Below are positions 16,108 to 61,658 of a stretch of 64,000 bases of DNA, one piece after another. The notes beneath the pieces are model-generated. The model was given only the letters and a program-made list of their open reading frames with translations, was not told the origin of the DNA and ran no database searches. Position 1 is the first letter of the stretch. Every line of letters begins with the position of its first letter. The translations under genes and the position numbers were made by a program. Origin of the DNA: Pararhodobacter aggregans (lineage in GTDB: Bacteria; Pseudomonadota; Alphaproteobacteria; Rhodobacterales; Rhodobacteraceae); the NCBI RefSeq assembly GCF_003075525.1, contig NZ_QDDR01000008.1, forward strand, positions 124,001 to 188,000, given 5' to 3'.

Positions 16108-16916
16108 GGTCACCTCCGTCGTTGGACGTGAATTACGGACGGGCGCCGCCGGAAATCCTCTTCATGGGTTCAGAGCCTGGTGGCGGACGGGGGGCGCGGG
16201 AAGCGAGGGTGCCGGCGCCAGAGACCGGTGGGCCAGCCCCCTCGGCTCCCGGCCGCGCCACTGGTCCGTTTCCGGTGCGCCGATCCCCCCCGCCAAAGGG
16301 GACCCTCGGGCCCCTTTGGAAACCCCCGAGGATATTTTTTCGAACAAAGATGGAGGTTAAGAGGGTACTAAGCCCCATCTTTGTTCTTCAAATATCCTCG
16401 GGGGGTGAATGCCCGCAGGGCAGAGGGGGGCAGACGGCCCCCCTTTCTGTTTCGGCGCGGCGAAGCCGCGCCGCTGGTCGCCCGCGGCGCCCGCGACAGC
16501 GGGCAACGAGGGCGAAACCCCTCGGCCTTGCAGCATCCCCGCGGGATCGGGATCCTCGGCGGGGCCAGCGCCGTCCTGACTGCGTGCATCACCGTCAACC
16601 GGATCGACTGTTGCAGGAAGCCCCTTCCTCACGGCCGCCCGCAACTGGGCCCGGTGCTGACCGAGCCGCCAAGGCTGTCCACCACGTCGCGCACCGGCTT
16701 GGTCACCCGCGTCAGCAGGTCGTCGTCATGCCGCCCGGTTCCGCCCTGTCGCAGGAAAGCGGTTGGTGCGCAGGTTGCCCGTACCGACATGGCCGTGGCA
16801 CTTGCCCCGCGCATGGCCTGTCACTCCTGCGCGGGTCTTGAAATCGGGCAGGCTGCCAGCGGCGGCGACACGTCACACGGGGCACCGGCGGCGATCTTGC
16901 GCCTGCGATCGGGGCG
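16108..16916. other. decayed intergenic region containing a repeat locus
   Basis: About 800 bases without an intact gene. Positions 16230-16525 are a double copy of the dispersed structured unit. The remainder, especially 16550-16900, has codon-like composition and opposite-strand fragments such as LLTRVTKPVRDVVDSLGG, but is broken by stops in every frame. I read it as the remains of one or more genes and cannot name them. Confidence 0.5.
16230..16525. repeat. dispersed structured unit, locus 1 (two units tail to tail)
   Basis: The conserved tails are 16323-16352 (plus sense) and 16375-16404 (minus sense), facing each other over the loop GGTTAAGAGGGTACTAAG. Outer parts are GC hairpins, including a CAAAGGGG/CCCCTTTG stem on the left and TGCCC/GGGCA, GGGGGG/CCCCCC and GGCGCGGC/GCCGCGCC stems on the right. 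Unlike most other loci it is not adjacent to intact 3' ends, only to a broken transposase and decayed sequence. It belongs with locus 8 to one loop subfamily. Confidence 0.85.
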
Positions 16917-17633
16917 TCAGATGGTCGGGATCACCGCCGAGCGGGCGCGGACCAGCGCCGCGAGGCTGCCGTAATCGCCCAGCCGCACGGCGCGTTCGGC
17001 GAGGTCGGTGAGCGAGGGGTCGCGCAGGGTCTGGCCGACCGAAGCGAGGAATTGCGCCGCATAGCGCTGCTGACCCCTGTCCGCGGACCCGTTCAGAAGC
17101 TCGGTCGCGCGGCGCAGATCGTCGCGCAGCGCCATCGGGTCGCCGCCCGCGTAGCGCTCGCGCAGGACCTCGGCCCGGGGCGGCCAATCCGCCAGGCCGT
17201 CGCCCAGGGGCTCGCCGATCAGCAGCGCCAGATGGCGCGCGAGGCTCACGGGTTTGGCGAGGAAGGCGTCGGCGCCCGCGGCCATCGCTTCCCCCTCAAG
17301 CCCCGCGTCGCCGCTGATCGCCACCAGACGCTGCGGCCGCAGGGACGTGGGGGCGAGGGCGGCGATCAGGTCGAGCCCCGATCCGTCCGGCAGGCCCAGA
17401 TCCACCAGCACGATATCCGGCCGGTAGACCCGCAGATGCAGCGTGGCCGAGGCCAGCGATTCGGCGCGGCGCAGCCGGATCCCGGCGTTGCGGCAGATCA
17501 GCCGCACCGCTTCGGCGGCAAGGCGGCTGTCCTCGACCAGCAGCAGCGTGCGGGGCGGCATGGCGAAGGCCGCGGCCGCGGCACGGGCGGGCAGGGGACG
17601 CGGCTGTTCTGCCGCACAGGGCGCGATGGGCAT
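16917..17633 (-). CDS. response regulator receiver protein with helical C-terminal domain
   Basis: A 238-residue protein beginning with a Pro/Ala-rich stretch and then a CheY-like receiver (about residues 27-140): LLLVEDS acidic pocket, phospho-acceptor Asp in DIVLVDLGLPDGSG, conserved Lys in DAFLAKPVS. Instead of a DNA-binding domain, the C-terminal 90 residues are helical (MALRDDLRRATELLNG to LAALVRARSAV), like an Hpt or phosphatase-type helical module but without an obvious phospho-His motif. The ATG at 17633 has GGAGG five bases upstream; a longer reading is not needed. No kinase gene is adjacent. Confidence 0.8.
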   Translation of the reverse strand: MPIAPCAAEQPRPLPARAAAAAFAMPPRTLLLVEDSRLAAEAVRLICRNAGIRLRRAESLASATLHLRVYRPDIVLVDLGLPDGSGLDLIAALAPTSLRPQRLVAISGDAGLEGEAMAAGADAFLAKPVSLARHLALLIGEPLGDGLADWPPRAEVLRERYAGGDPMALRDDLRRATELLNGSADRGQQRYAAQFLASVGQTLRDPSLTDLAERAVRLGDYGSLAALVRARSAVIPTI

Positions 17634-17703
17634 GGGCACCTCCGATTCTGACCCCGATCCTGGCAGCCAATGGTTCACGCCCGGTTAAACTGCGGCCTCG
17701 CGT

Positions 17704-17732
17704 CGCTTGCTTTCCGCGCCGCGGCCTATATT
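17704..17732 (+). promoter_or_regulatory. candidate promoter of mce
   Basis: A clear -10 box TATATT lies at 17727-17732 in otherwise GC-rich sequence, with a weak -35 (CGCTTG, 17704-17709) 17 bp upstream. It would start transcription about 25 bases before the epimerase ATG. Confidence 0.4.
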
Positions 17733-17761
17733 CAGGCAGCGACACCGCAGAGGAAGAGACC

Positions 17762-18166
17762 ATGATCGGACGCCTGAACCATGTCGCCATCGCCGTGCCG
17801 GACCTCGAGGCCGCCGCGGCCCAGTACCGCATGACGCTGGGGGCCGAGGTCGGCCCGCCGCAGGACGAGCCCGACCATGGGGTGACCGTGGTTTTCATCA
17901 CCCTGCCGAACACCAAGGTGGAACTGCTCTATCCCCTGGGCGAGAGCAGCCCGATCCAGGGCTTTCTGGACAAGAACCCCTCGGGCGGGATCCACCACAT
18001 GTGTTTCGAGGTCGACGACATCCTCGCCGCGCGCGACCGGCTGAAGGCCGAAGGCGCGCGGGTGCTGGGAACCGGCGAGCCCAAGATCGGCGCCCATGGC
18101 AAGCCCGTGCTCTTCCTGCATCCCAAGGATTTCAACGGCTGCCTGATCGAACTGGAACAGGTCTGA
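17762..18166 (+). CDS. mce: methylmalonyl-CoA epimerase
   Basis: A 134-residue VOC-fold enzyme that interconverts (2R)- and (2S)-methylmalonyl-CoA in propionyl-CoA metabolism, and in this family also in the ethylmalonyl-CoA pathway. Metal ligands are visible: His in LNHVAIAVPDL (residue 7), His in GGIHHMCFEV and Glu in the final CLIELEQ. GVTVVFITLPNTKVELLYPLG is typical. The length is exactly that of the family. AGGAAGAG precedes the ATG. Its stop overlaps the start of the next gene (TGATG), so both form an operon ending in an intrinsic terminator. Confidence 0.95.
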   Translation: MIGRLNHVAIAVPDLEAAAAQYRMTLGAEVGPPQDEPDHGVTVVFITLPNTKVELLYPLGESSPIQGFLDKNPSGGIHHMCFEVDDILAARDRLKAEGARVLGTGEPKIGAHGKPVLFLHPKDFNGCLIELEQV

Positions 18167-18444
18167 TGATCCCGCTTTTTTCCGCCTTCGTCCTTTACGC
18201 CTTCATCTGGTTCCTGACGCTGCTGGTCGTCCTGCCCCTGCGGCTGACCACCCAGGGCGAGGCGGGTCAGATCGTCGCCGGCACCCCGGAATCGGCGCCG
18301 CATGATCCCAGGATCGGCCGCAAGATGCTGGTGACCACCATCGCCGGGACGCTGATCTGGGCCGTGGTGGTGGCGATCATCGTCTCGGGCTGGATCTCGA
18401 TCGAGGATGTGGACATCCTGCACCGCTACATGGGCGCCCCGTAA
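18166..18444 (+). CDS. DUF1467 family membrane protein
   Basis: A 92-residue inner-membrane protein with two hydrophobic helices (residues 4-26 and 55-77) joined by a loop GEAGQIVAGTPESAPHDP, the hallmark of DUF1467. This alphaproteobacterial family is regularly found directly behind mce, as here where the start codon overlaps the mce stop. Function is not known. Confidence 0.88.
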   Translation: MIPLFSAFVLYAFIWFLTLLVVLPLRLTTQGEAGQIVAGTPESAPHDPRIGRKMLVTTIAGTLIWAVVVAIIVSGWISIEDVDILHRYMGAP

Positions 18445-18459
18445 AGGGCGCCCCTTTTT
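18432..18459 (+). terminator. intrinsic terminator of the mce operon
   Basis: GGGCGCCC (18432-18439) pairs with a second GGGCGCCC (18446-18453) around the DUF1467 stop codon, followed by CTTTTT. It fits into the 14-bp gap between two convergent genes. The T-run suits only plus-strand transcription. Confidence 0.75.
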
Positions 18460-19148
18460 CAGCGCATCGCGATGCGGTGGAACAGGTGGGTGAAGGCCGC
18501 CACCCCGAACACCGGCACGAACAGGTTCAGCACCGGCACGCTGAGCGGGATGGCAAACAGCACCCCGGCGATCCAGAGCGTGCCCATATTGGCCTGGCGC
18601 ATCCGCGCAGCCTCGACCGGGCCCATGCGGCGCAGCGCCACGGTGGTGAAATATTCCCGCGCCAGCAGGAAGCCGTTGATCGCCCAGAACACCACGAAAC
18701 CGAGCCCGGCGGTGAAGACGACGATGATCAGTCCGATCAGGTTGAGCAGGATGAAAAGCCCGGTGTAGCGCAGCGCGTCCTTGAGCGAGTCCCAGAAGCC
18801 CGCCCTGTCGGCGGGGGGCAGCTGGGGGTAATGCTCGGCCTCGACGGCATCGGCGACCTCATCGAGGAAGAACCCGCTGAAGGCCGAGGCGACGGGCACC
18901 ATCAGGAAGATGCTGAGCACCAGCATGACCGGGATCGAGGCCAGCGTCAGCGCCGTGTCGAGCCCGCCGACCGGGCCGACCCAGGGCAGGCCCACGCTGT
19001 CGGGCACCAGCAGCTGGATCGCCAGCACCAGGAGCCAGTAAAGCGCGAAAAGCAGCGCCACCGACAGGGCGAGCCCCAGCCAGACCACGCGGCGGAACCG
19101 CGGGTCGCCGAATTGGCCAAGGGCCGCGAAGATCGCACCGAGGATCAT
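18459..19148 (-). CDS. EI24/CysZ-like membrane protein
   Basis: A 229-residue inner-membrane protein with about five or six hydrophobic segments and the EI24 signature GFFLDEVADAVEAEHYP near residue 95 and the FTAGLGFVVFWAINGFLLAREYFTTVALRR segment typical of CysZ-like proteins. CysZ mediates sulfate uptake in some bacteria; in alphaproteobacteria the role of these homologues is not established. The start overlaps the nitroreductase stop (ATGA), forming a two-gene operon. Confidence 0.85.
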   Translation of the reverse strand: MILGAIFAALGQFGDPRFRRVVWLGLALSVALLFALYWLLVLAIQLLVPDSVGLPWVGPVGGLDTALTLASIPVMLVLSIFLMVPVASAFSGFFLDEVADAVEAEHYPQLPPADRAGFWDSLKDALRYTGLFILLNLIGLIIVVFTAGLGFVVFWAINGFLLAREYFTTVALRRMGPVEAARMRQANMGTLWIAGVLFAIPLSVPVLNLFVPVFGVAAFTHLFHRIAMR

Positions 19149-19720
19149 GCTGAAACCCGGGTGACGATGGCGGCGAGGTCAGGCCGGGGCCGGTCGCCCA
19201 CCGCCGTCGCGCAACTGCCGAGATGGACGAAGCCCGCCACCTGTTCCTGCGGGGCAAGGTCCAGGCCACGGCTCATGAACTCGCGGTCGAAAGCCGCCCA
19301 GCCGGTGATCCAGGCCGCGCCCCAGCCCGAGGCCAGCGCCGCATTGACCAGCGCGGCGCAGACCGCGCCGGCCGAGAGGATCTGCTCCAGCTCGGGGGCC
19401 TTTTCCGAGGGCACGGGCGCGGCGATCACCGCCACGACCAGCGGCGATTTCTCCCACAGGCTGGCCGATTTCTCGACCTTGACGGGATCGACGCCAAGCA
19501 GCGGACCGCGCTCGCGCACCAGCCCGGCGAGGCGCTGGCGGGCGGGGGCTTCGAGCACCAGGAAGCGCCAGGGCGCCAGCGCGCCGTGGTCGGGCACCCG
19601 GGCGGCGGCGGTCAGCAGTTGCTCCAGCGCCGCGCCCTCGGGGGCGGGGGCGGTCAGGGCGGCGGCGGGTTTCGAGCGGCGGGTGAGGAGAAAATCCATC
19701 ACCGGATTGGCTTGGGTCAT
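19145..19720 (-). CDS. nitroreductase family protein (YdjA-like)
   Basis: A 191-residue FMN-dependent oxidoreductase of the nitroreductase family. The N-terminal FMN-binding RRSKPAAALTAP, the VPDHGALAPWRFLVLE segment and the C-terminal SGWGAAWITGWAAF and PQEQVAGFVHLGSC stretches match the compact YdjA-type group. The start ATG at 19720 has GGAGG upstream; a longer reading from 19852 would cross the divergent promoter region and is rejected. Physiological substrate unknown. Confidence 0.88.
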   Translation of the reverse strand: MTQANPVMDFLLTRRSKPAAALTAPAPEGAALEQLLTAAARVPDHGALAPWRFLVLEAPARQRLAGLVRERGPLLGVDPVKVEKSASLWEKSPLVVAVIAAPVPSEKAPELEQILSAGAVCAALVNAALASGWGAAWITGWAAFDREFMSRGLDLAPQEQVAGFVHLGSCATAVGDRPRPDLAAIVTRVSA

Positions 19721-19826
19721 CGGGTACCTCCGGCGTCTCAGATCGCAACTCTGCACCGGAGATTCAAGGCCGCTTGCCGCGGGCGCCAAAAGTGCGACAT
19801 TGAGCCCGGAACAGGGAGGGTGGCTC

Positions 19827-20621
19827 ATGCTGATGGCCGATCTGGGCGACATACGCCTGAACTACCAGCTGCATGGCGATCCCGAGGGGCCGCCGCTGGT
19901 GCTGATCCATGCGCTGGGGACGGACCTGAGGCTCTGGGACAAGATCCTGCCGCTTCTGCCCCGGGGGCTGCGGGTGCTGCGCTATTCGCTGCGCGGGCAT
20001 GGTCTCTCGGATGCGCCGAACCCGCCCTATCCGATGGGCACGCTGGTGCGCGATGCTGAGCGCCTGATGGAGCATGTGGGGATGCGCGACGCGCTGGTCG
20101 TGGGGCTGTCCATCGGCGGGCTGGTGGCGCAGGGGCTGGCGGTCAAGCGGCTGGATCTGGTGCGCGCGCTGGTCCTGTCCAACACCGCCGCCAAGATCGG
20201 CACCGCCGAGATCTGGCGTCAGCGCATCGCCCTGATCGAGGACAAGGGGCTGGAGGCCATCGCCGACGCCACGCTGGAACGCTGGTTTCCCAAGCCCTTC
20301 CGCCAGACGGACGAGGCCCTTGCCTGGCGTCACATGGTCACCCGCACGCCGCGTCACGGCTATGTCGGCTGCGCCCATGCCATCGCCGGGACCGATTTCT
20401 ACACGCCGACCAGCGGGCTCAGGCTGCCGGTGCTGGCCATCGCGGGCAGCGAGGATGGTTCGACCCCGCCCGATCTGGTGCGCGAAACCGCCGAGCTGGT
20501 GCCGGGTTCGCGCTTTCACCTGATCCGGGGCGCGGGCCATCTGCCCTGCGTCGACAAACCGGCCGACTATGCCGAGGCGCTGACCGCCTTCATCCACGAA
20601 ACCGGGCATCTGGCGGCGTGA
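19827..20621 (+). CDS. pcaD: 3-oxoadipate enol-lactonase-like alpha/beta hydrolase
   Basis: A 264-residue alpha/beta hydrolase most like PcaD, which hydrolyses beta-ketoadipate enol-lactone in the protocatechuate branch of aromatic degradation. The nucleophile Ser95 lies in GLSIGG, the acid in the AGSEDGSTPP region and the His in RGAGHLPCVD. The opening with LNYQLHG and the LRYSLRGHGLSDAP motif support PcaD over generic hydrolases. GGGAGGG precedes the ATG. No other pca gene is nearby, so a related hydrolase activity is possible. Confidence 0.82.
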   Translation: MLMADLGDIRLNYQLHGDPEGPPLVLIHALGTDLRLWDKILPLLPRGLRVLRYSLRGHGLSDAPNPPYPMGTLVRDAERLMEHVGMRDALVVGLSIGGLVAQGLAVKRLDLVRALVLSNTAAKIGTAEIWRQRIALIEDKGLEAIADATLERWFPKPFRQTDEALAWRHMVTRTPRHGYVGCAHAIAGTDFYTPTSGLRLPVLAIAGSEDGSTPPDLVRETAELVPGSRFHLIRGAGHLPCVDKPADYAEALTAFIHETGHLAA

Positions 20622-20653
20622 CCCCGCCCCGACACCCCCAGACCGGCTGAAAC

Positions 20654-21862
20654 ATGCGCCAATCGCTGCCCGTCGTCTTCATTCTCGTCACGCTGATGCT
20701 CGATGCCATCGGCTACGGGCTTATCATGCCCGTCATGCCCGACCTGATCCGCGAGGTGACGGGCGAGGATCTGTCGCATGCCGCGCTCTGGGGCGGGTTG
20801 CTGACCGGCGGTTTCGCGGTCATGCAATTCCTGTTCGGCCCGGTGATCGGCAACCTGTCGGACCGCTACGGGAGGAAGCTGGTGCTGCTGCTGTCCCTGG
20901 GCATGCTGGCCGCGGATTACCTGGTGCTGGCGCTGGCGGGCAGCATCTGGCTGATCTTTCTGGCGCGGCTGGTCAATGGCGTGACCTCGGCCACCTATGG
21001 CACGGCCAGCGCCTATATCGCCGATATCTCCACCCCGCAGCAGAAGGCGCAGCGCTTCGGCCTGATCGGCGCGGCCTTCGGGGCGGGGTTCATCCTCGGC
21101 CCGGCGGTGGGCGGCATGTTGGGCGAGTTCGGCACCCGTGCGCCCTTTCTGGCCGCGGCGGCGGTGGCGGCGCTGAACCTCGTCTTCGGCGCCTTTGTCA
21201 TGCGCGAATCGCTCAAACCCGAGAACCGCCGCCCGTTCGACTGGCGCCGGGCCAACCCGTTCGGCGCCTTCAAGAACATCGGCCGCCTGCCGGGTCTGGG
21301 CCGGTTCCTGACCGTCTATTTCGCCTTTGAATTCGCCTTCACCGTCTATCCGGTCATCTGGGCCTATTTCTCGACCGCGCGCTTTGGCTGGAGCGCGGGG
21401 CAGGTCGGGCTGTCGCTGGCCTATTACGGGCTGGGCATGGTGCTGGTGCAGGGCGTGCTGATGCGCGGGGCGATCCGCTGGCTGGGCCGGGGCGGCGCCA
21501 TGGCGCTGGGGGCGGCGGCGGCGCTGGTGTCCTTCTCCTTCCTCACGGTGGTGGAGAGCGGCGTGCTGGCGCTGGTGCTGATCCCGATCTCGTCCCTGTC
21601 GGGGCTCATCAACCCCGCGCTCAGGGCCGAGATGTCGGATCGGGTCGAGGCCAGCCAGCAGGGCGAATTGCAGGGCGCGCTGGCCTCGTTGCACGCCCTG
21701 GGGATGATCGTCGCGCCCTTCGTCTATACCCAGGTCTTCGCCGCCTTCACCGGGGCCGGGGCGATCATCGAGCTGCCGGGCATGGTCTTTGCCCTGCCCG
21801 CGCTCCTGAGCCTGATCGCCCTGATCCTGTTGCGACCCCAGACCGAAAGGAGTCCCGCATGA
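20654..21862 (+). CDS. MFS transporter, TetA-like multidrug/tetracycline exporter family
   Basis: A 402-residue, 12-helix major facilitator of the DHA1/TCR-TetA group. Motif A GNLSDRYGRKLVLLLSL lies in the 2-3 loop and the exporter motif C GAGFILGPAVGGMLGE in helix 5; LDAIGYGLIMPVMPDLI at the N-terminus is typical of TetA relatives. It is a drug or metabolite/proton antiporter by family; no specificity can be read from sequence. The stop overlaps the next start codon (ATGA), so the oxidoreductase behind it may make or consume the exported compound. Confidence 0.88.
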   Translation: MRQSLPVVFILVTLMLDAIGYGLIMPVMPDLIREVTGEDLSHAALWGGLLTGGFAVMQFLFGPVIGNLSDRYGRKLVLLLSLGMLAADYLVLALAGSIWLIFLARLVNGVTSATYGTASAYIADISTPQQKAQRFGLIGAAFGAGFILGPAVGGMLGEFGTRAPFLAAAAVAALNLVFGAFVMRESLKPENRRPFDWRRANPFGAFKNIGRLPGLGRFLTVYFAFEFAFTVYPVIWAYFSTARFGWSAGQVGLSLAYYGLGMVLVQGVLMRGAIRWLGRGGAMALGAAAALVSFSFLTVVESGVLALVLIPISSLSGLINPALRAEMSDRVEASQQGELQGALASLHALGMIVAPFVYTQVFAAFTGAGAIIELPGMVFALPALLSLIALILLRPQTERSPA

Positions 21863-23169
21863 ACCTTGCCGCCCTGGCCCGTGCCCGCGCCGAGGCGGGC
21901 CGCCCCGTCAGCGTCGCCCTGATCGGCGCGGGGAAATTCGGCTCGATGTTCCTGGCGCAGGTGCCGCATATCGCCGGGCTTTCCGTCACCCATATCGCCG
22001 ATCTGAACCCCGACCGCGCCCGCGCCGCCTGTCGCGCGGTGGGCTGGAGCGCGGAACGCATCGCCGCCACGACCTTCCTTGAGGACGGGCTGGAGGTGGC
22101 GCGGACCCCGGCCGAGGTGGTGATCGAGGCCACCGGCGCCCCCGAGGCCGGGCTCAACCATGCCCGCGCCGCGCTCGACGCCGGCAAGCATGTGGTCATG
22201 GTGAATGTGGAGGCCGATGTGCTGGCGGGTCCGGTGCTGGCGGCGCAGGCGCGGGCGGCGGGGCTGGTCTATTCCATGGCCTATGGCGATCAGCCCGCGC
22301 TGGTGGCCGAGATGGTCGATTGGGCCCGCGCGACCGGCTTCGAGGTCGCGGCGGCGGGCAAGGGGACCAAGTTCCTGCCGCTCTATCATTCGGTCACGCC
22401 TGATGGCGTCTGGCCGCATTACGGGCTGACGGCGGAACAGGCGGCCGAGGCGGGGATGAACCCGCAGATGTTCAACTCCTTCCTCGACGGCACCAAATCG
22501 GCCATCGAGATGTCGGCAATCGCCAATGCCTGCGGCCTCGACGTGCCCGAGGACGGGCTGGCCTTCCCGCCCTGCGGCGTCGACGATCTGGCGCAGGTGC
22601 TGAGGCCCCGGTCGCTGGGCGGGCAGCTGGAGCGGGACGGGATGGTCGAGGTGGTCTCGTCCCTCGAACGCGACGGGCGGCCGGTGTTCCGCGATCTGCG
22701 CTGGGGCGTCTTTGTCGTGCTGAAGGCGCAGAACGATTACGCGGCGGGCTGTTTCCGGCAATACGGGCTGCCGACCGATTCGACCGGGCAATACGCCTCG
22801 ATGTACAAACCCTTCCACCTGATCGGCATGGAGCTGTCGGTGAGCGTGCTGTCCGCCGCACTGAGGGGCGAGGCCACGGGCCAGAGCAGGGCTTGGCGGG
22901 GCGATGCGGTGGCGGTGGCCAAGCGCGACCTGAAAGCGGGCGAGATGCTGGATGGCGAGGGCGGCTATACCGTCTGGGGCAGGGCCTGCCCGGCCTCGGT
23001 CTCGGCGGCGAAGGCGCTGCTGCCCATCGGACTTGCCCACAGGGTGCGGATGCGCTGCGCCCGGCGGAAAGGCGAAATTCTGGGCATGACGGATGTGGAA
23101 CTCACCGAATCGCACACCGGCGTCCGGCTGCGCAGAGAGATGCTTGCCGCATCCTTGGGCGCTGGCTAG
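21859..23169 (+). CDS. NAD(P)-dependent oxidoreductase with SAF domain
   Basis: A 436-residue protein with an N-terminal Rossmann fold (VALIGAGKFGSMFLAQV near residue 20, then HIADLNPDRA) resembling homoserine dehydrogenase, a catalytic middle with GKGTKFLPLYHSVTPD and a C-terminal SAF domain (VAVAKRDLKAGEMLDGEGGYTVWG, residues about 350-400). Such SAF-oxidoreductases occur in sugar-acid and polyol catabolic clusters; the exact substrate is unknown. It is translationally coupled to the MFS gene. Confidence 0.85.
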   Translation: MNLAALARARAEAGRPVSVALIGAGKFGSMFLAQVPHIAGLSVTHIADLNPDRARAACRAVGWSAERIAATTFLEDGLEVARTPAEVVIEATGAPEAGLNHARAALDAGKHVVMVNVEADVLAGPVLAAQARAAGLVYSMAYGDQPALVAEMVDWARATGFEVAAAGKGTKFLPLYHSVTPDGVWPHYGLTAEQAAEAGMNPQMFNSFLDGTKSAIEMSAIANACGLDVPEDGLAFPPCGVDDLAQVLRPRSLGGQLERDGMVEVVSSLERDGRPVFRDLRWGVFVVLKAQNDYAAGCFRQYGLPTDSTGQYASMYKPFHLIGMELSVSVLSAALRGEATGQSRAWRGDAVAVAKRDLKAGEMLDGEGGYTVWGRACPASVSAAKALLPIGLAHRVRMRCARRKGEILGMTDVELTESHTGVRLRREMLAASLGAG

Positions 23170-23337
23170 ACTTTGGGCACTTTCGCTCTCGGCGGGGGCA
23201 AGGAAAGGCCCGATACCCCCGCACGACGCACAATCCTTGCTTGAGGTTTTGATCATATTTTCGCACAGTTTTGGTCAAGGACCTTCAGAGTCCAGCCAAA
23301 GTACCCCCGAAAGGGGCCCAACGGAGAGTGAAAGCGC

Positions 23338-24429: not shown

Positions 24430-24436
24430 GCCCCTT

Positions 24437-24465
24437 GCCCCGCCCGCATCCCCTGCGGGCGGGGC
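24437..24465 (+). terminator. hairpin between potF and potG
   Basis: GCCCCGCCCGCA pairs perfectly with TGCGGGCGGGGC around TCCCC and is followed by TTCCCTTTCT. Placed after the binding-protein gene inside the operon, it is probably a partial terminator or an mRNA 3'-end stabiliser, as in other binding-protein-dependent operons. Confidence 0.65.
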
Positions 24466-24503
24466 TTCCCTTTCTGCCGAGGCCTTTTTGAGAAGGTGTT
24501 TCG

Positions 24504-27498: not shown

Positions 27499-27499
27499 A

Positions 27500-27597
27500 G
27501 GCGGGGGGCTGCTCGCCCCCCGCACCCCCTCGCCAAAGGGGGGAGCACGCTCCCCCCTTTGGAAACCCCCCGTGGATATTTAGAGAACAAAGATGGG
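27500..27597 (+). repeat. dispersed structured unit, locus 2 (one unit behind potI)
   Basis: One unit in the sense of potI: hairpin GGGGGGC-tgctc-GCCCCCC, a second stem CCAAAGGGGGGAGC/GCTCCCCCCTTTGG (27533-27562), then CCCCCCGTGGATATTTAGAG and AACAAAGATG. Its end touches the convergent mbfA stop at 27599. Probable transcription terminator or 3'-end element. Confidence 0.85.
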
Positions 27598-27598
27598 G

Positions 27599-31487: not shown

Positions 31488-31492
31488 GACGA

Positions 31493-33621: not shown

Positions 33622-33899
33622 CGGGCCGGGTCATGCGGGGGGCCAGCCCCCCGCACCCCCCGCCAAAGGGGACCCTCGGGCCCCCTTTGGAAACCCCCGA
33701 GGATATTTAGAGAACAAAGATGTAAGTTAAGAGGGCGCCAACCTGCCATCTTTGTTCTCCAAGTATCCTCGGGGGGTGAATGCCCGCAGGGCAGAGGGGG
33801 GCAGACGGCCCCCCTTCCTCGGCGCCGCGGAACGCGGCGCCGCTGGTCGCCCGAGGCGCTCGTGCCGAAGGCGCGGGCAACGAGGGCGAATCCCCTCCA
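33622..33899. repeat. dispersed structured unit, locus 3 (two units tail to tail)
   Basis: Tails at 33694-33722 (plus sense) and 33747-33775 (minus sense) enclose TAAGTTAAGAGGGCG and a short spacer. The right unit follows rlmJ in its own sense. The left unit points away from fabB and has no plus-strand gene before it. The first 115 bases are identical to those of locus 5 apart from a single base, which suggests recent copying or gene conversion. Confidence 0.88.
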
Positions 33900-35830: not shown

Positions 35831-35953
35831 GGGGTTTCGCCCTCGGTGCCCTCGGGCGACCGAGGCGGGGGGCTGCCGCCCCCCGCACCCCCTGCTTCAA
35901 GGGGGGCACGCCCCCCTTGAAAATCCCCGTGGATATTTGGGGAACAAAGATGG
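35831..35953 (+). repeat. dispersed structured unit, locus 4 (one unit behind fabA)
   Basis: Sense orientation to fabA: GGGTTTCGCCCTCGG-type outer stem, GGGGGGC/GCCCCCC hairpin, then TTCAAGGGGGGC/GCCCCCCTTGAA (35896-35921) and the tail GTGGATATTTGGGGAACAAAG. The 5' part is the same as the outer end of loci 1, 3, 5 and 8, so this unit looks like a hybrid of two subtypes. Confidence 0.85.
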
Positions 35954-41687: not shown

Positions 41688-41697
41688 CATCATACTC

Positions 41698-41745
41698 CTG
41701 TCACAACGGCTTCCTGGCGTGACGGGCGACATGCAATGGAGCACA
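41698..41745 (+). promoter_or_regulatory. SAM/SAH-type riboswitch of metK
   Basis: The run TCACAACGGCTTCCTGGCGT followed by GAC, and later ATGGAGCA, matches the SAM/SAH riboswitch class found upstream of metK in Rhodobacterales. Stem P1 is GTCAC (41700-41704) with GTGAC (41719-41723). The GGCTTCC loop can pair with GGAGC at 41738-41742 to give the pseudoknot. GGAG is also the Shine-Dalgarno of metK, so ligand binding should hide it and turn translation down when SAM is plentiful. Confidence 0.92.
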
Positions 41746-42919: not shown

Positions 42920-43190
42920 CGGGCCGGGTCATGCGGGGGGCCAGCCCCCCGCGCCCCCCGCCAAAGGGGACCCTCGGGCCCCCTTTGGAAACCCCCGAGG
43001 ATATTTAGAGAACAAAGATGTAAGTTAAGAGGGCGTTAAGCCGTCTTCTTTGCGCTTCAAATATCCTCGGGGGGTGAATGCCCGCAGGGCAGAGGGGGGC
43101 AGACGGCCCCCCTTCTTCGGCGCGGCAACGCCGCGCCGCTGGTCGCCCGAGGCGCCCGCGGCAGCGGGCAACGAGGGCGAAACCCCTCCC
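42920..43190. repeat. dispersed structured unit, locus 5 (two units tail to tail)
   Basis: The left unit follows metK in sense orientation (tail 42992-43020); the right unit follows the PIN gene in its minus-strand sense (tail about 43042-43072, with several changes). Loop TAAGTTAAGAGGGCG is shared with locus 3. Right-hand stems are TGCCC/GGGCA, GGGGGGC/GCCCCCC and GGCGCGGC/GCCGCGCC. Confidence 0.88.
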
Positions 43191-47241: not shown

Positions 47242-47265
47242 ACGCGGCCGCGCCACGCCCTTTTT

Positions 47266-47393
47266 CCATCTTTGTTCTGAAAATATCCTCCGGAAGGGGT
47301 CCGGGGAGGGTGGAAAACCCTCCCCGGGCGGGGGCGGGTGGCAACCCGCCGGGCGCCGGGGGGCTCGATGCCCCCCGGCGCCCGCCCTCCCTG
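47266..47393 (-). repeat. dispersed structured unit, locus 6 (one unit behind ggt)
   Basis: Oriented with ggt: from its stop outward come GGGCGCCGGGGGGC/GCCCCCCGGCGCCC, GGCGGGT/ACCCGCC, CCGGGGAGGG/CCCTCCCCGG (47301-47327) and the tail GAGGATATTTTCAGAACAAA plus GATG. It ends 25 bases from the convergent edd stop. Confidence 0.85.
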
Positions 47394-51231: not shown

Positions 51232-51296
51232 GCCCGGGCGCCATTGCCGGATCGGCAGGGCACCCCATATAGTCAGGGCAACCCGGGAAAACCCTG

Positions 51297-54163: not shown

Positions 54164-54170
54164 TCCGCCT

Positions 54171-54298
54171 CATCTTCGTTCTGAAAATATCCTCGGGAGG
54201 ATTTTCAAGGAGGGTGGAAAACCCTCCTTGAAGCAGGGGGTGCGGGGGGCGGCAGCCCCCCGCCCATTGTATGAACTTGGGGCGGCAGCCCCCCGCTT
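54171..54298 (-). repeat. dispersed structured unit, locus 7 (one unit behind accC)
   Basis: Oriented with accC: GGGGGGCTGCCGCCCC-type hairpin (two copies, 54243-54262 and about 54279-54295), stem TTCAAGGAGGG/CCCTCCTTGAA (54204-54232), tail CGAGGATATTTTCAGAACGA then AGATG. The tail abuts the ribosome binding site of aat. Confidence 0.85.
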
Positions 54299-54312
54299 GC
54301 ACTCGACCCGTC

Positions 54313-55659: not shown

Positions 55660-55669
55660 TGCCAGGGCC

Positions 55670-56164
55670 TTATTCGATGATCATCAGGGGCGCGCCGTAT
55701 TCAACGGGCGTGCCATCGGTCACCAGGATGCGCTTGACCACGCCCGAGGCCGGGGCCGGAATGTGGTTCATGGTCTTCATCGCCTCGATGATCAGCACGG
55801 TCTGCCCGGCGCTGACCTGCTGGCCGACGGCGACGAAGGGATCGGCGCCCGGTTCGGCCGCGAGATAGGCCGTGCCCACCATCGGCGAGGAGACGGCGCC
55901 GGGATGGTCGGCCGGATCGGCCGAGGCCGGAGCGGCGGCTGCTGCTGCCGGGGCCGAGGGCGCGGCCGAGGGCGCCGCGGCCGGGGCCGCGTAGCTGACC
56001 GGCGCCGCCTGGACGATCTGCGATTGCTTGGCAACCTTGACGTTCAGCGTGTCATTCTCGCCGTATTCGCGCTTGACCGAGATCTCGGTCAGCTCGTTCT
56101 GGTTCAGAAGTTCCGCCAATGCCTTGATGAAGGCGACGTCGGAGGTGATGTGATCTTTGCTCAT
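55670..56164 (-). CDS. accB: acetyl-CoA carboxylase, biotin carboxyl carrier protein
   Basis: A 164-residue carrier. An N-terminal helical part (residues 1-50) is joined by a long Ala/Pro linker (about 55-90) to the biotinyl domain, with the biotinylated Lys in [13 protein letters not shown] (usual form EAMKMMN; here Met is replaced by Thr after the Lys). ATG 56164 has GAGG six bases upstream and is preferred to 56170. Confidence 0.94.
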
Positions 56165-56374
56165 GGACATCCTCGTTGCGGCGGGTGCTGTCCCGGCCTG
56201 CGATGTTGTCTGACGCGTCCCGCGTTGTGCCGCGGGGTTATACGTCAGGCCCCGTCGCGTGAAAAGTGCCATTCTCCCGGTCGGGGATTCCATCGGCGCG
56301 CGCGGGGTCGGGCGGCGGCGCTTGCGTGCCGGTCGGCCGCATGGTGTAACAGCGGGATCGAGGAGGCAAGGGCC

Positions 56375-57706
56375 ATGCCCAGACCCGCACCCAGACCCGC
56401 CTTGTCCGGCACGCGCATCCGCGCCCTGCGCACCGCGCGGCGGCTGGGGCAGGCGGATCTGGCGCGGATGGCCGGGGTCTCGCCTTCCTACCTCAACCTC
56501 ATAGAACACAACCGCCGCCGGGCGTCGGCCCCGGTGCTGGAGGCCATCGCCAGGGCCCTGCAGATCCCGGCCGAGGCGCTGGACGAACGGGCGGGCGACG
56601 CGCAGATCCAGGCCCTGCGCACCGCCGCCGCCCGGGCCCAGCCCGGCACCGAGCCCGAGGTCGACCGCGCCGATGAACTGGTCGGCCGTTTCCCCGGCTG
56701 GGCGGCACTGCTGGCGCAATTGCAGACCCTGGCCGAGGCGCAGGAGCGGATCATCGAGCGGCTCTCCGACCGGATGGCGCATGACCCGAATCTCTCGGCC
56801 TCGCTGCACGAGATCGTCTCGGCGGTGACCTCGGTTCAATCCACCGCCGCGATTCTGGCCGAATCCGAGGATCTTGAGCCCGAGTGGCGGGCGCTCTTCC
56901 ACCGCAACGTTCACGATGATTCCGTGCGGCTGGCCAATGCCGCCGAGGCGCTTGTCGCCTTCCTCGACACGTCGAGCGAGGAAACCGGCCTCGCCGCCCC
57001 GCAGGAGGAGCTGGAAAGCTGGCTCGAGCGGCAGGGCTTCCACGTCGCCGCGGTCGAAGCGGGCGGCGATTGGGCGGCGCTGATCGCCGGGCAGGCGGAA
57101 CTCGCCTCGGCCGCGGCGCGCAGTCTGGCCGAGGATTGGCTGGCCCGCGCCCATGAGGATGCCCGCGCCCTGCCGCTGGGGCGGCTGATGCCGGTGCTGG
57201 TGCGGGTCTTCACCGCCGGGGCCGGTTTCGCGCCCGAGGAACTGGCGCGGCATTTCGGCGTCGGCTTGGCGCAGCTGTTCCGGCGGCTGGCGACGCTGCC
57301 GCCCGAACCGGGGATCCCGCGCTTCGGGCTGGCGATCTGCGACGGGTCGGGCACGCTGACCTTCCGCCGCCCGATCGAGGGCTTCCAGCTGCCGCGCTTC
57401 GGCGGTGCCTGCCCGCTCTGGCCGCTTTACGAGGCGCTGTTGCGGCCCGACCGTCCGGTGCGCGCCCCGGTGGAATTCGCCGGTCGCCCGCCGGGGCGGT
57501 TCATCGCCCATGCCGTGGCAGGCGCCCGCGACCCGCTGCGGTTCGAGCCGCCCTTCGTCTGGGAGGCCAGCATGCTGGTCACGCCCGCCTCGGTCGCAGG
57601 CGGCGCGGCCGAGGGCGAGGCGGTGCGGGCGCTGGGATCGAGCTGCCGGGTCTGCCCGCGCGAGTTCTGCCCGGGGCGGCGCGAACCCTCGATCGTCTCG
57701 GGCTGA
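56375..57706 (+). CDS. XRE-type short-chain fatty acyl-CoA regulator (ScfR/PccR family)
   Basis: A 443-residue regulator with an N-terminal Cro/CI HTH (residues 10-65, IRALRTARRLGQADLARMAG, SYLNLIEHNRR) and a long ligand-binding part ending in the DUF2083 domain with the Cys cluster CRVCPREFCPGR. Family members such as PccR of Rhodobacter sphaeroides respond to short-chain acyl-CoAs and activate propionyl-CoA or acetate/glyoxylate genes. AGGAGG lies eight bases before the ATG. It stands beside accB-accC and upstream of a signalling cassette; whether it controls either is not visible. Confidence 0.88.
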   Translation: MPRPAPRPALSGTRIRALRTARRLGQADLARMAGVSPSYLNLIEHNRRRASAPVLEAIARALQIPAEALDERAGDAQIQALRTAAARAQPGTEPEVDRADELVGRFPGWAALLAQLQTLAEAQERIIERLSDRMAHDPNLSASLHEIVSAVTSVQSTAAILAESEDLEPEWRALFHRNVHDDSVRLANAAEALVAFLDTSSEETGLAAPQEELESWLERQGFHVAAVEAGGDWAALIAGQAELASAAARSLAEDWLARAHEDARALPLGRLMPVLVRVFTAGAGFAPEELARHFGVGLAQLFRRLATLPPEPGIPRFGLAICDGSGTLTFRRPIEGFQLPRFGGACPLWPLYEALLRPDRPVRAPVEFAGRPPGRFIAHAVAGARDPLRFEPPFVWEASMLVTPASVAGGAAEGEAVRALGSSCRVCPREFCPGRREPSIVSG

Positions 57707-57827
57707 GGGGCAGGGCGCGCCGCCTCACGCAGCCTTTGACAGCTTTGTGAATTGCCGCGATAGTTTCCGGGGCAGGCCGGCCGGGAGGGACGCGCCGCCC
57801 GGGTGGACCACCGGGGAGGACCATCGC

Positions 57828-58271
57828 ATGAGCCACGACGGGGCCGAAGCCTCGGGGGGCGGCGGCACGGCGTCGATGGCGCCGCTGCCGGGCAGGCGCG
57901 GCGTCGGACGCCGCGTGCTGGTGGTCGAGGACGAGCCCAACATCTCGGAAGCGATCCGTTTCATCCTGCGCCGCGACGGCTGGGAGGTGGCGATCGAGGC
58001 CACCGGCACCGGCGCGCTGGCCCGCATCCGGGCCGAGGTGCCCGATCTGGTGATCCTGGACGTGATGCTGCCCGGCGCCAGCGGCTTCGACATCCTGCGC
58101 GCCTTGCGCGGCCAGCCGGGCACCGCTCCCCTGCCGGTGATCCTGCTGACCGCCAAGGGCTCGGCCCAGGTGCGCGAACAGGCGATGGCGGCGGGCGCCT
58201 CGATGTTCATCGCCAAACCCTTTGCCAATGCCGAATTGCTGGCTGCGGTGCGCCAGCTGGTCGGTGTATGA
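57828..58271 (+). CDS. single-domain response regulator
   Basis: A 147-residue protein: a 35-residue Gly-rich leader, then a receiver domain with VLVVEDEPNISEAIRF, phospho-acceptor Asp in LVILDVMLPGASGFD (about residue 77) and Lys in FIAKPFAN. No output domain follows. GGGGAGGA precedes the ATG. It leads a three-gene cassette ending with a symporter-kinase and is probably its phosphorylation partner. Confidence 0.88.
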   Translation: MSHDGAEASGGGGTASMAPLPGRRGVGRRVLVVEDEPNISEAIRFILRRDGWEVAIEATGTGALARIRAEVPDLVILDVMLPGASGFDILRALRGQPGTAPLPVILLTAKGSAQVREQAMAAGASMFIAKPFANAELLAAVRQLVGV

Positions 58272-58278
58272 TCGGCGC

Positions 58279-58575
58279 ATGAAGCCGCCCCGCGCCCCCC
58301 TGTTCCTCCAACGCGAGACCTATCGCCGCCGTCGCATCATGGATGCCGCGCGGATCCTGCCGGTGGTGGGCTTCGTGCTGATCCTGCTGCCGGTGCTCTG
58401 GACCCGGGGGCGGGCGCTGAGCACGGCGGCAGAGGCGGTCTATCTGTTCGTGCTCTGGCTGGTGCTGGTACTGGCGGCGGCGGCGCTGTCGCGGCCCCTG
58501 CGCGCGGCGCTGAAGCGCGATGCCGAGGCGGCCGAGCGGCGGGCCAGCCCCGCCCCCGATGAGGGCGCGCCATGA
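58279..58575 (+). CDS. small two-helix membrane protein
   Basis: A 98-residue protein with a basic N-terminus (MKPPRAPLFLQRETYRRRR), two hydrophobic helices (residues 25-40 and 52-72) and a charged tail. It starts seven bases after the receiver gene and overlaps the kinase start by four bases. Small two-helix proteins (DUF4212 type) accompany solute:sodium symporters, so it may be a subunit of the symporter-kinase; the sequence match itself is weak. Confidence 0.7.
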   Translation: MKPPRAPLFLQRETYRRRRIMDAARILPVVGFVLILLPVLWTRGRALSTAAEAVYLFVLWLVLVLAAAALSRPLRAALKRDAEAAERRASPAPDEGAP

Positions 58576-61310
58576 CCCTCAACATCCTGGTCCCGGCGGC
58601 GCTGGCCTATGTGATCTTCCTGTTCACCATCGCCTCGCTGGCCGAACGCCGGGCCGAGGCGCTGCGCGCCAGCGGGCGGCAGGCCCGGTTCCTGCGCTCG
58701 CCCCTGGTCTATACGCTGTCGCTGTCGGTCTATTGCACGGCCTGGACGTTCTACGGTGCGGTGGGCTATGCGGCGCGCTCGGGCCTCGAATTCATGACCA
58801 TCTACCTGGGCCCGACGCTGGTCTTCGTCGGCTGGTGGTGGCTTCTGCGGAAGCTGGTCAGGATCGGCAAGGCGCAGCGCGTGACCTCCATCGCCGACCT
58901 GATCTCGTCGCGCTATGGCAAGTCGAACGCGGTCGGCGTCATCGTCACGGTGATCGCGGTCATCGCCACCACGCCCTATATCGCCCTGCAGCTGCAATCC
59001 ATCGCCCTCAGCTTCGGCGCCTTCACCGCGGGCGAGACGCTGGCGCCGCAGCAACTTGCGATGTGGGTGGCGGTGGGTCTGGCGCTGTTCACCATCCTTT
59101 TCGGCACCCGGAACCTCGATTCCAACGAGCAGCACCACGGTGTCGTCACCGCCATCGCGGTCGAGGCGGTGGTCAAGCTGGTGGCGCTCTTGGCGGTGGG
59201 GATCTGGGTGGTCTGGGGCCTGGCCGAGGGGCCCACCGACATGCTGGCCCGCATCGCGCAGGCCGAGCGGCCGGAATGGGCCATCGAACCCGGACGCTGG
59301 ATGGGGCTGACCTTTCTGGCGGGCGTGGCGATCCTGACCCTGCCGCGCATGTTCCAGGTCATGGTGGTCGAGAACGCCGACGAGAGCCATCTCGCCGTCG
59401 CCTCCTGGGCCTTTCCGCTCTATCTGATGGCGATGAGCCTCTTCGTGCTGCCCATTGCCGCGGCGGGGCTGATGCTGCTGCCGGAAGGATCGAACCCCGA
59501 CCTCTTCGTGCTGACCCTGCCGCATGCGCTGGGACAGAACGGTCTGGCGATGCTGGCCTTCCTGGGGGGATTTTCCGCCGCCACCTCGATGGTCATCATC
59601 GCCGCGATTGCGCTGGCGACGATGGTGTCGAACCATATCGTCGTGCCGATGTGGCTGGCGTCCCGCCAGCGCGCCGCCGACCGGGGGCTGGCGCCCGCGC
59701 GCGATGCCAGCGACATGCGGGGGCTTGTGCTGAACGCGCGCCGTCTGTCCATCGGTGTGATCCTGGGGCTGGGTTACCTCTATTTCGCCATCTCGGGCGG
59801 GTCACGGGCGCTCGCCGCCATCGGCCTCATCTCGTTCGCCGGCATGGCGCAGGTGCTGCCCGCGCTGATCGGCGCGCTCTATTGGCGGGGCGCGAGCCGC
59901 ATCGGCGCCGCGGCGGGGCTGGTGGTGGGCGGGCTTGCCTGGCTCTACACGCTGTTCCTGCCGTCCTTCGGTCCGGGCGTGATCCTCGGCGCCGAGCTGA
60001 TGGCCGAGGGGCCCTTGGGCATCGGCTGGCTGAGGCCGCACGCGCTTTTCGGGGTCGAGGGGCTGGACCCGCTGCTGCACGCGCTCTTCTGGTCGCTGGC
60101 GCTCAACGCCACCGCCTTCATCACCGGCTCGCTGCTGAGTTTCCCCAGCCCGGTGGAACGCGTGCAATCGGCGCAATTCGTCAATGTCTACGACATCGGC
60201 CAGGGCGACGAGAGCCCCGGCGCCCGCGGCTGGTCGCGCGAGGCGGCCGAGAACGAGGCCGAGGATCTGCTGGCCATGTCCCAGCGCATCCTGGGCGCGG
60301 CCGAGGCGCAGAGCTTTTTCGAGGCCCAGACCCGCGGCCAGGGCAAGGCGGGGTTCCTGCCCGACCCGACGCCCGATTTCCTCGACAAGCTGGAGCGCGA
60401 GCTGGCGGGCTCGGTCGGCGCGGCCACGGCGCATGCGATGATCGCCCAGATCGTCGGCGGGCGGCTGGTGACGGTCGATGACCTGATGGCCGTGGCCTCG
60501 GAAACCGCGATGATCATGGAGCATTCGGCCCAGCTGGAGGCGAAGTCCGAGGAACTGGCCCGCACCGCCCGCCAGCTGCGCGAAGCCAATGAGCTTTTGC
60601 AAAAGCTCTCGGTGCAGAAGGACAGTTTCCTCAGCCAGATCAGCCATGAACTCCGGACGCCGATGACCTCGATCCGGGCCTTTTCCGAGATCCTGATGGA
60701 CGACGAGGTGACCGGCGACGAGATCACCCGCTACGCCCGCATCATCCACGACGAATCGATCCGGCTGACCCGGCTGCTTGATGACCTGCTGGACCTGAGC
60801 GTGCTGGAGAACGGGCAGGTCAATCTCGACATACAGCGGGCCCTGCTGGGCGATCTGATCGACCGGGCGCTGATGGCCTCGAATTCGGTTCTGCCGCACC
60901 GCCACTTCACCCTGCGCCGCCAGAGCGCGGATGAAGAGATCGCGCTCAGCACCGATATCGGCCGGCTGACGCAGGTGTTCATCAATGTGGTGTCGAACGC
61001 CCGGAAATATTGCGATGCGACGGCGCCGGAGCTGCGCATCGCCGTGCGCCAGCGGGGCGGCAAGGTGGTGGTCGATTTCATCGACAACGGTTCGGGGATC
61101 CCCAAGAAGAGCCAGATGCTGATCTTCGAGAAATTCGCCCGGCTGACCGATACCCATCAGGCCGGCGGCGCGGGCCTCGGCCTCGCCATCTGCCGGGAGA
61201 TCATGCACAATCTGGGCGGCGACATCGCCTATCTGCCGGGCCAGGGGGGCGCCGCCTTCCGCGTGAGCTTCCCGGCGCGGCTGGAGGCCCGGGCGCGGGC
61301 TGCTGAATAG
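58572..61310 (+). CDS. solute:sodium symporter-histidine kinase fusion
   Basis: A 912-residue sensor. Residues 1-540 form a complete SSS/PutP-like transporter of about 13 helices (FYGAVGYAARSGLEF, then FGTRNLDSNEQHHGVV near 180). A coiled coil near residue 650 leads to HisKA with the phospho-His in SQISHELRTPMTSIRAF (about 692) and a HATPase domain with VSNARKY, DNGSGIP and GAGLGLAI. This is the CbrA type of architecture, in which a transporter domain senses or carries a nutrient such as an amino or organic acid. A double structured unit follows. Confidence 0.93.
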   Translation: MTLNILVPAALAYVIFLFTIASLAERRAEALRASGRQARFLRSPLVYTLSLSVYCTAWTFYGAVGYAARSGLEFMTIYLGPTLVFVGWWWLLRKLVRIGKAQRVTSIADLISSRYGKSNAVGVIVTVIAVIATTPYIALQLQSIALSFGAFTAGETLAPQQLAMWVAVGLALFTILFGTRNLDSNEQHHGVVTAIAVEAVVKLVALLAVGIWVVWGLAEGPTDMLARIAQAERPEWAIEPGRWMGLTFLAGVAILTLPRMFQVMVVENADESHLAVASWAFPLYLMAMSLFVLPIAAAGLMLLPEGSNPDLFVLTLPHALGQNGLAMLAFLGGFSAATSMVIIAAIALATMVSNHIVVPMWLASRQRAADRGLAPARDASDMRGLVLNARRLSIGVILGLGYLYFAISGGSRALAAIGLISFAGMAQVLPALIGALYWRGASRIGAAAGLVVGGLAWLYTLFLPSFGPGVILGAELMAEGPLGIGWLRPHALFGVEGLDPLLHALFWSLALNATAFITGSLLSFPSPVERVQSAQFVNVYDIGQGDESPGARGWSREAAENEAEDLLAMSQRILGAAEAQSFFEAQTRGQGKAGFLPDPTPDFLDKLERELAGSVGAATAHAMIAQIVGGRLVTVDDLMAVASETAMIMEHSAQLEAKSEELARTARQLREANELLQKLSVQKDSFLSQISHELRTPMTSIRAFSEILMDDEVTGDEITRYARIIHDESIRLTRLLDDLLDLSVLENGQVNLDIQRALLGDLIDRALMASNSVLPHRHFTLRRQSADEEIALSTDIGRLTQVFINVVSNARKYCDATAPELRIAVRQRGGKVVVDFIDNGSGIPKKSQMLIFEKFARLTDTHQAGGAGLGLAICREIMHNLGGDIAYLPGQGGAAFRVSFPARLEARARAAE

Positions 61311-61324
61311 GGTCGGACGGGTGG

Positions 61325-61658
61325 GGAGGGGGCGGGGGGCCAGCCCCCTCGACTCCCGGCCGCGCCAAGGGCGCGGCGTTCGCGGCCGAAACGCGCCACT
61401 GGCGCGTTTCCGAGACGCCGCTCACCCCCCGCCAAAGGGGACCCTCGGGCCCCCTTTGGAAACCCCCGAGGATATTTGAAGAACAAAGATGAAGGTTAAG
61501 AGGGTACTAGGCCCCATCTTTGTTCTTCAAATATCCTCGGGGGGTGAATTGGCCGTCAGGCCAAGAGGGGGGCAGAAAGCCCCCCTTCTTCGGCGCGGCG
61601 GCACGCCGCGCCGCTGGTCGCCCGAGGCGCCCGCGTCAGCGGGGGGCGAGGGCGAAAA
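61325..61658. repeat. dispersed structured unit, locus 8 (two units tail to tail)
   Basis: The clearest copy: the tail at 61463-61491 and its partner at 61515-61543 are a perfect 29-base inverted repeat around a 23-base loop. The left unit follows the kinase gene in its sense, the right unit follows hemF in the minus sense. Right-hand stems include TTGGCC/GGCCAA where other loci have TGCCC/GGGCA, and GGGGGGC/GCCCCCC. Confidence 0.9.

Follow-up and report, generated by a model that had tools for sequence, protein, structure and literature searches.

It is at the ends of genes that a stretch of 64,000 nucleotides of Pararhodobacter aggregans DNA (the window, C8:124001-188000, C8 being a contig of the 5.08 Mb genome) repeatedly carries the unit described here, which consists, from the gene outward, of one or two GC hairpins, a C-tract, the word GRGGATATTT, three free bases (N3) and GAACAAAGATG, with everything from GRGGATATTT onward forming a two-part tail. 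The hairpin and the bipartite tail, together with the species dialects of the latter, suggest an undescribed signal for the end of messages. We favour, tentatively and at a little less than an even chance, the sequence-based reading that it is a transcript 3'-end module of the Rhodobacterales whose tail would be read by a sequence-specific trans-acting factor. The reading starts from the placement of the units, a direction bias at tandem junctions, their architecture, their dialects and their partly shared orthologous sites, all of which were observed directly. A preliminary description of the window had claimed 12 units at 8 loci, and all 12 were found where it had put them; the lineage dialects, the order-wide range and a CtrA-type box between paired tails are additions to that description.

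The conserved two-part tail already reported is borne by 11 of the 12 units as one 24-base word, GAGGATATTT-N3-GAACAAAGATG, and by the twelfth with a 4-base spacer. The exact pattern GAGGATATTT-N(0-12)-AACAAAGATG occurs 7 times in the window and not once in 100 dinucleotide shuffles, while GAGGATATTT with at most 1 mismatch has 12 occurrences (mean in shuffles, 0.67). Across the whole genome, the 24-base tail with at most 3 mismatches is present in 256 copies (122 on the + and 134 on the - strand), and the reversed control gave 0. Placement was studied in a sample of 864 kb, or 17% of the genome, made of 800 kb of contigs C1-C3, picked regardless of copies, plus the window, with genes called by a simple coding-potential caller that was trained on the sample and may miss genes. 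A slightly wider tail pattern, allowing up to 3 substitutions, gave 59 units in this sample, 35 at convergent, 24 at tandem and 0 at divergent junctions, with 0 inside called genes. Among junctions with a gap of at least 60 bases, a unit is carried by 23 of the 62 convergent, 20 of the 224 tandem and none of the 115 divergent ones (convergent vs. divergent, Fisher p 1.4e-12). Since a unit of either strand is "sense" at a convergent junction, orientation is informative at tandem junctions only, where 12 single units are sense and 4 antisense (one-sided p 0.04); the paired ones there are necessarily split evenly, 4 to 4. Stronger evidence than orientation is that, in this genome, no divergent junction carries a unit. 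Random placement, which the preliminary description had named as the outcome that would count against it, is not what the sample holds, although the direction bias at tandem junctions is just that 12 to 4. From stop codon to tail, the median distance is 123 nt, taken over the 49 of 55 units with a sense upstream gene.

Class A hairpins have one stem (e.g., CCAAAGGGG..CCCCTTTGG or TTCAAGG..CCTTGAA) and class B hairpins have two (e.g., GGGGGGCCGTCTGCCCCCC, then TTGGCC..GGCCAA, then TTCACCCCCC); a simple sequence rule puts 29 of the 59 units in A, 17 in B and 13 in neither, and 27 units are single and 32 paired. A perfect stem of at least 8 bp was found in 40/59 units compared with 6.2% of shuffles, and support for the stem rests on this shuffle control, the arms used for covariation having been pre-selected for complementarity and their 270 upstream stretches having come from a loose pattern. 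The information content of the 59 units reaches 1.1-2.0 bits at the fixed tail positions, which is partly by construction because the units were located by their tails; the low values around them are not, with 0.3-1.1 bits in N3, 0.0-0.6 downstream and at most 0.9 in the hairpin region. Downstream of the tail, single units have almost nothing in common. The distance from the end of the longest stem to TATTT is 11-15 bases in 46 of the 59 units, 17 in 2 and 5 in the 11 whose stem uses the C-tract, and a run of five T occurs in a single unit of the 59. This spacing and the rarity of T runs make a poor fit to canonical intrinsic termination, and these data agree with the earlier claims that the T-tract is lacking, that the tail is better conserved than the hairpin and that the unit is not a normal terminator. 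Pairing of GAGG with the hairpin was also considered and rejected, being weak and inconsistent in 20 folds. As a separate observation, the hairpin core GGCTGTCTGCC/GGCCGTCTGCC (class B, L352, L353 and other loci) is found again from Paracoccus through to Leisingera and, probably by chance, looks like the uptake word GCCGTCTGAA of Neisseria.

It is with this architecture that a rival explanation has to be weighed, namely a terminator recognised by RNA polymerase, either unaided or helped by NusA, NusG or Rho, in which ATATTT would be a weak U-tract and the purine-rich half the downstream DNA, with no dedicated factor and with dialects that are drift within a loose requirement. We consider it somewhat unlikely. 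The hairpin, the 3' position and TATTT do recur across the genomes seen, and the 11 stems that reach the C-tract would suit such a terminator, but the 46 more distant stems and the lone run of five T do not, and in any one genome TATTT and the dialect half are conserved to about the same degree and N3 is variable, a pattern not expected of loose drift; a plain terminator leaves the dialect half unexplained. Alternatively, transcription could continue past the unit and an endonuclease such as RNase E could cut the AU-rich tail, with the hairpin blocking 3' exonucleases. TATTT is unpaired in 50 of the 59 predicted folds, and the RNase E of R. sphaeroides favours AU-rich sites according to excerpts from PMC6238624; the same excerpts, however, place only about 2% of its cleavage sites in 3' untranslated regions, and a preference for AU needs no 11-base lineage-specific word. 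We regard a processing or stability signal of this kind as quite improbable.

The first half of the tail takes the forms GRGGATATTT, GAGTATTT or GCGTATTT, and it is the second half that varies by lineage. The genome of the window uses GAACAAAGATG, with GCGCAAAGAAG and GCAGAATGAAAG (at least 9). Other genomes, each designated here by G and a number, have their own words, the copy counts being lower bounds obtained with patterns at set mismatch limits: GACAGAAGAAG in G002 (at least 105 copies), CCAGAATGAAAG in G051 (at least 26) and CCAAAATGAAAG in G021 (at least 17), besides AACAGAAGAAG among 35 matches in G005, GACAGATGAA among 21 in G028, GCTCGATGAAAG or near variants among 78 in G016 and CCACAATGAAAG among 23 in G010. 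Among the matches listed, there are also GACAGAAAATG and CCAGAATGAAGG in G158, CCAGCAAGAAG and AAAGGCAAAG in G113 (the latter a subfamily with a mostly fixed GGA spacer), CCAGAAAGAAG in G119, and AACAGGCGAAG and GGCCGATAATG in G148. Even within the genus, the window's own word is found within 2 mismatches in 9 of 17 genomes and in none of the other 8, one of which, G071, has GACAG-type words such as GACAGATGAAG among its listed matches. When three words were tried on 61 genomes of the family, 33 matched, some of them singly (a union counted by hand), and the 28 without a match may use other words.

The first half is widespread in the order as sampled here, in 121 Rhodobacterales genomes, all of the window's family. 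The word CACCCCCGAGGATATTT with at most 2 mismatches is found in 101 of these (at least three matches in 61, one or two in 40, by a hand count of the matches listed), with single reversed-control hits in 5, and some of its matches are not units, L366 and L367 resembling coding sequence. At the stricter limit of 1 mismatch, a class-wide draw of 190 alphaproteobacterial genomes had it in 2, both of the window's family, a third member of which had none, and in none of the 187 that belong to other families. One pair searched with BLAST against 72,556 plasmids matched 25 records, from Paracoccus, Leisingera, Tritonibacter, Pelagovum, Salipiger, Ruegeria and Marinibacterium. The five plasmid records examined are all from Rhodobacterales (Paracoccaceae and Roseobacteraceae), and the four annotated at the site show a unit 3' of a RidA gene and in its sense (Leisingera aquaemixtae), a pair between convergent genes (Paracoccus aminophilus), a unit antisense and upstream of a transporter gene (Salipiger), and a unit flanked by two genes that share its orientation, the first ending about 470 bases before it (Pelagovum). 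A phage origin was rejected, the exact tail words occurring in 1 and 3 stretches of a viral collection and one pair searched with BLAST giving no match in phage records.

Words with species dialects bring to mind the DNA uptake sequences (DUS) of Neisseria, which occur in coding sequence too, and the uptake signal sequences (USS) of Pasteurellaceae. That the tails are such DNA self-recognition words, standing at gene ends since they are tolerated there, nevertheless seems to us hardly credible. Excerpts from PMC3630211 and PMC1852404 do describe species dialects of DUS and a tie of uptake words to terminator-like hairpins, respectively, but the latter also give a thousand or more copies as typical of uptake words, against 256 here. 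The absence of all 59 units from called genes would be left unexplained, and the bias in orientation with respect to genes, seen at tandem junctions, speaks against it as well.

Pairs, in which two units stand tail to tail, number 16 in the 864 kb, of which 14 join a class A to a class B unit and 15 have a loop of 23-24 bases. A pair gives the impression of two independent sites and not of a single long hairpin, since complementarity between the N3 triplets of its arms (6 of 48) is no greater than chance would give (shuffled mean 7.4), and the pair as one long palindrome was accordingly discarded. The loop often holds a second feature, TTAA-N7-TTAA, which according to partial texts of PMC6180460 and PMC4046655 is a CtrA full site. 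It occurs 9 times in the sample against 0.3 expected from base composition, 8 of the 9 being in pair loops, while TTAA boxes with spacings of 3-6 or 8-11 occur once altogether. The box is present in 12 of 18 pairs of this genome and in 6 of 16 script-found pairs of other genomes, with N7 differing in some, and is absent from both G016 pairs examined.

Repetitive extragenic palindromic (REP) sequences and bacterial interspersed mosaic elements (BIME) are hairpins scattered outside genes, singly or as inverted pairs, with lineage subfamilies and with REP-associated tyrosine transposases (RAYT). The preliminary description had proposed that the unit spreads by copying, and this holds for the paired units, which are copied composites of A and B that have a loop in common (14 of 16 pairs), but not for the single units, which share almost nothing past the tail. 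A repeat family of the REP/BIME type that spreads in this way, is tolerated at gene ends and has no role of its own, with the dialects as its subfamilies, is in our judgement unlikely. In its favour, in addition to the composites, are near-identical hairpins at many loci, the G113 subfamily with its GGA spacer and the coexistence of several subfamilies per genome, congeneric G077 included. It is opposed by the single units just mentioned, by some orthologous sites that are kept, and by the avoidance of genes and divergent junctions (0/59), which copying leaves unexplained in the window's own genome. Membership in the REP/RAYT system was searched for through the transposase domain Y1_Tnp (PF01797) in 15 genomes and rejected, the domain being found in 2 and not in the other 13, the window's own included.

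The orthologous sites come from a draw of 15 of 37 tail-bearing and 15 of 98 tail-free eligible genes, matched for junction type, with 3 tail-free genes dropped over query length. In G077, GNNTATTT lies within 260 bases of the stop codon in 7 of 15 orthologs of tail-bearing genes and in 1 of 10 controls, and all seven shared sites are in a dialect other than that of the window's genome: its second half there is GAACAAAGATG at five and GCGCAAAGAAG at two, and that of G077 is of the GACAGATG type at five, GACAGAAAATA at one and GCAAGATGAAGG at one. The clearest case, P07, has in both genomes a common gene order, the inner hairpin AGCACGCT, a retained CCCCCCGTGGATATTT and a tail whose final ATG is where the following gene starts, while the outer stem is altered on both of its sides and GAACAAAGATG corresponds to GACAGATGATG in G077. 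When 251 upstream genes were compared under looser conditions, 43 similar pairs emerged, including metK and fabA of the window with tails in other species, although its loci were pre-selected for tails and the 43 pairs are no rate.

Gene-end placement, stems kept despite sequence change, a word fixed within a genome but with a variable spacer, and lineage-wise change at shared sites together favour a 3'-end signal that is read sequence-specifically. Several results weigh against it. The tail is found at only 48 of 385 gene ends with at least 50 bases of flank, and T-tract terminators are also present in the genome. Direction is imperfect, as 4 of the 16 single tandem units are antisense to the upstream gene; in G016, the upstream gene is sense for 13 of 18 units and antisense for 5, 3 of these at junctions called divergent; and in G010, 2 of 4 are antisense. 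The remaining smaller samples, with the same caller, gave a sense upstream gene in 3/4 (G071), 2/4 (G010, the same four) and 0/1 (G026). The ortholog comparison with G077 is merely suggestive (one-sided p 0.065), and more distant genera share few sites, with 1/9 vs. 0/8 among the orthologs fetched in G002 and 0/7 vs. 0/7 in G051. Moreover, the window's own word, with at most 2 mismatches, has 51 copies in G077, of the GAGCAAAGATG kind at the two loci examined, so dialects coexist and a genome does not shift all of its sites. At P13, a change of hairpin class accompanies that of dialect, which means that replacement of whole units is possible.

The favoured 3'-end module would work as follows. 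RNA polymerase leaving the gene would make one or two strong GC hairpins, the C-tract and then the tail, GRRTATTT-N3 followed by the dialect of about 11 bases; a trans-acting factor would read the tail past the hairpin by its sequence, as downstream DNA or as unpaired RNA; and transcription would stop, or the RNA would be cut, at the tail, with the hairpin shielding the new 3' end. That RNAs end at the tail, and that the factor exists, is what we infer from the observations above. Back-to-back units would serve convergent genes, and the dialect half would track the specificity of the factor, in such a way that same-dialect sites would shift together between species. Sequence-addressed transcript ends have an analogy in eukaryotes, in TTF-I/Reb1 or in polyadenylation signals. 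The more specific proposal drawn from this analogy, that a dedicated factor reads the bipartite word past the hairpin and that word and factor co-evolve into species dialects, many same-dialect sites shifting together, is possible but doubtful. A guide RNA with a complementary word was rejected, given that the main second half never occurs tail-free in the 864 kb, the four listed cases being tails with a mutated first half. No description of the element appeared among the matches listed in open-licence full texts, a scope outside which subscription papers and preprints lay.

If the tail is indeed read by a factor, a sequence-specific and factor-dependent 3'-end signal would mark the ends of many genes in an order that is large and of ecological importance, its natural dialects would make specificity and co-evolution directly testable, and it would help to explain how gene ends that have no T-tract are made in these GC-rich genomes, besides offering usable terminator parts. 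Even as a repeat family, the units are a large class of elements unrecognised in the Rfam searches made here: at the gathering score, the only match in the whole window was a SAM-SAH riboswitch, and at E <=1, the 10 tail loci searched gave one tRNA only, with no curated family matched by the units searched.

Within the window, tail-to-tail pairs had been reported for metK/PIN and kinase/hemF; both are confirmed, but the pairs are not limited to these two, there being four, at 16.3, 33.7, 43.0 and 61.5 kb, with single units at 27.6, 35.9, 47.3 and 54.2 kb. The 16.3 kb pair joins a class A unit (16293-16352, +; hairpin 16293-16319, AAACCCCC, tail 16328-16352 with the 4-base spacer) to a class B double-hairpin unit (16376-16455, -; tail 16376-16399, hairpins about 16400-16455) and adjoins remnants of IS4/5-type transposases. 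The 33.7 kb pair has a class A arm (33663-33722, +; tail 33699-33722) that is antisense to both neighbours, rlmJ and a beta-ketoacyl synthase gene, themselves on one strand, and a class B arm 3' of rlmJ (33747-33826, -; tail 33747-33770). At 43.0 kb, a class A arm 3' of metK (42961-43020, +; tail 42997-43020) and a class B arm 3' of the PIN gene (43045-43124, -; tail 43045-43068) enclose the CtrA-type full box TTAAGAGGGCGTTAA (43025-43039), and the second arm, at 43068 (-), has the different second half GCGCAAAGAAG, a second dialect present in 10 of 58 tails sampled from the genome. The 61.5 kb pair has a class A arm 3' of a histidine kinase gene (61432-61491, +; tail 61468-61491) and a class B arm 3' of hemF (61515-61594, -; tail 61515-61538). 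The single units are of class A 3' of a potI-like gene (27533-27595, +; tail 27572-27595, a GTGGATATTT variant), 3' of fabA (35896-35952, +; tail 35929-35952) and 3' of accC (54171-54232, -; tail 54171-54194, hairpin 54204-54232), and the unit 3' of a ggt-like gene spans 47267-47327 (-; tail 47267-47290, hairpin 47301-47327).

Nine units had been placed 3' of genes, and all nine run in the same sense as the gene concerned, with the remaining three being the 16.3 kb pair and the + arm at 33.7 kb. A profile search of the upstream genes bore out most of the names given earlier, naming RlmJ, FabA, MetK, AccC, a PIN protein of the RSP_2648 family and an oxygen-dependent coproporphyrinogen oxidase. 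PotI and ggt fell below cut-offs, the first being a permease at 357 bits (PotI cut-off 476) and the second a gamma-glutamyltranspeptidase by Pfam that is slightly under the NCBIfam cut-off, and the symporter part claimed for the kinase was not confirmed, kinase domains being the sole profile matches of the gene 5' of the 61.5 kb + arm. Some further features were noted nearby. The transposase remnants (DUF4096 and DDE_Tnp_1 pieces, about 15357-16012, -) lie between an ABC permease gene and the 16.3 kb pair, and the SAM/SAH riboswitch, of a known Rhodobacterales family, lies 5' of metK (41695-41743, +; 57 bits). Elsewhere in the genome, the final ATG of the tail is the called start codon of the next gene at C1:173403, C2:40535 and C3:106854, and the overlap at C1:173403 is also present in G077. 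Other hairpins 3' of genes, of the GTAGGATGGGC..GCCCATCCTAC and GTAGGGTGCGTGCTCGCACGCACC kinds, occur at 6558-6637 of the window and on contig C1, and in G071 (C1:1-200000, L183-L192) there is another dispersed junction element, a palindrome like GCGTCC-NNNNNN-GGACGC with AATTAACCGCAATGAAA some bases off.

Compared with known systems, the units resemble intrinsic (Rho-independent) terminators in having GC hairpins at gene ends, back to back at convergent genes, but here there is no T-tract beside the stem, and a long sequence-specific tail with lineage dialects follows further downstream. With REP/BIME elements they share extragenic hairpins, single (27 units) and paired (32 units), none inside called genes, and lineage subfamilies, whereas their conserved word is 3' of the hairpin and tied to gene ends, and 13 of 15 genomes show no RAYT. 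With DUS/USS they share a genome-wide word, species dialects, several of which can occur in one genome, and terminator-like hairpins; here, in contrast, the word is outside the hairpin, and there are 256 copies, with none in the called genes of the sample. The CtrA full site, as described in the partial texts of the two papers cited above, is matched by sequence, since the same exact box is in the loops of many paired units, but it stands between paired tails at gene 3' ends and not at a promoter, an unexpected position. Finally, the HRC-8-4 motif of Rhodobacterales is likewise an order-restricted, terminator-like stem between genes, and, as excerpts from PMC8632094 present it, it differs from the tail units in being mainly of one locus type (ccoP/ccoG), with a run of U and a conserved stem tip.

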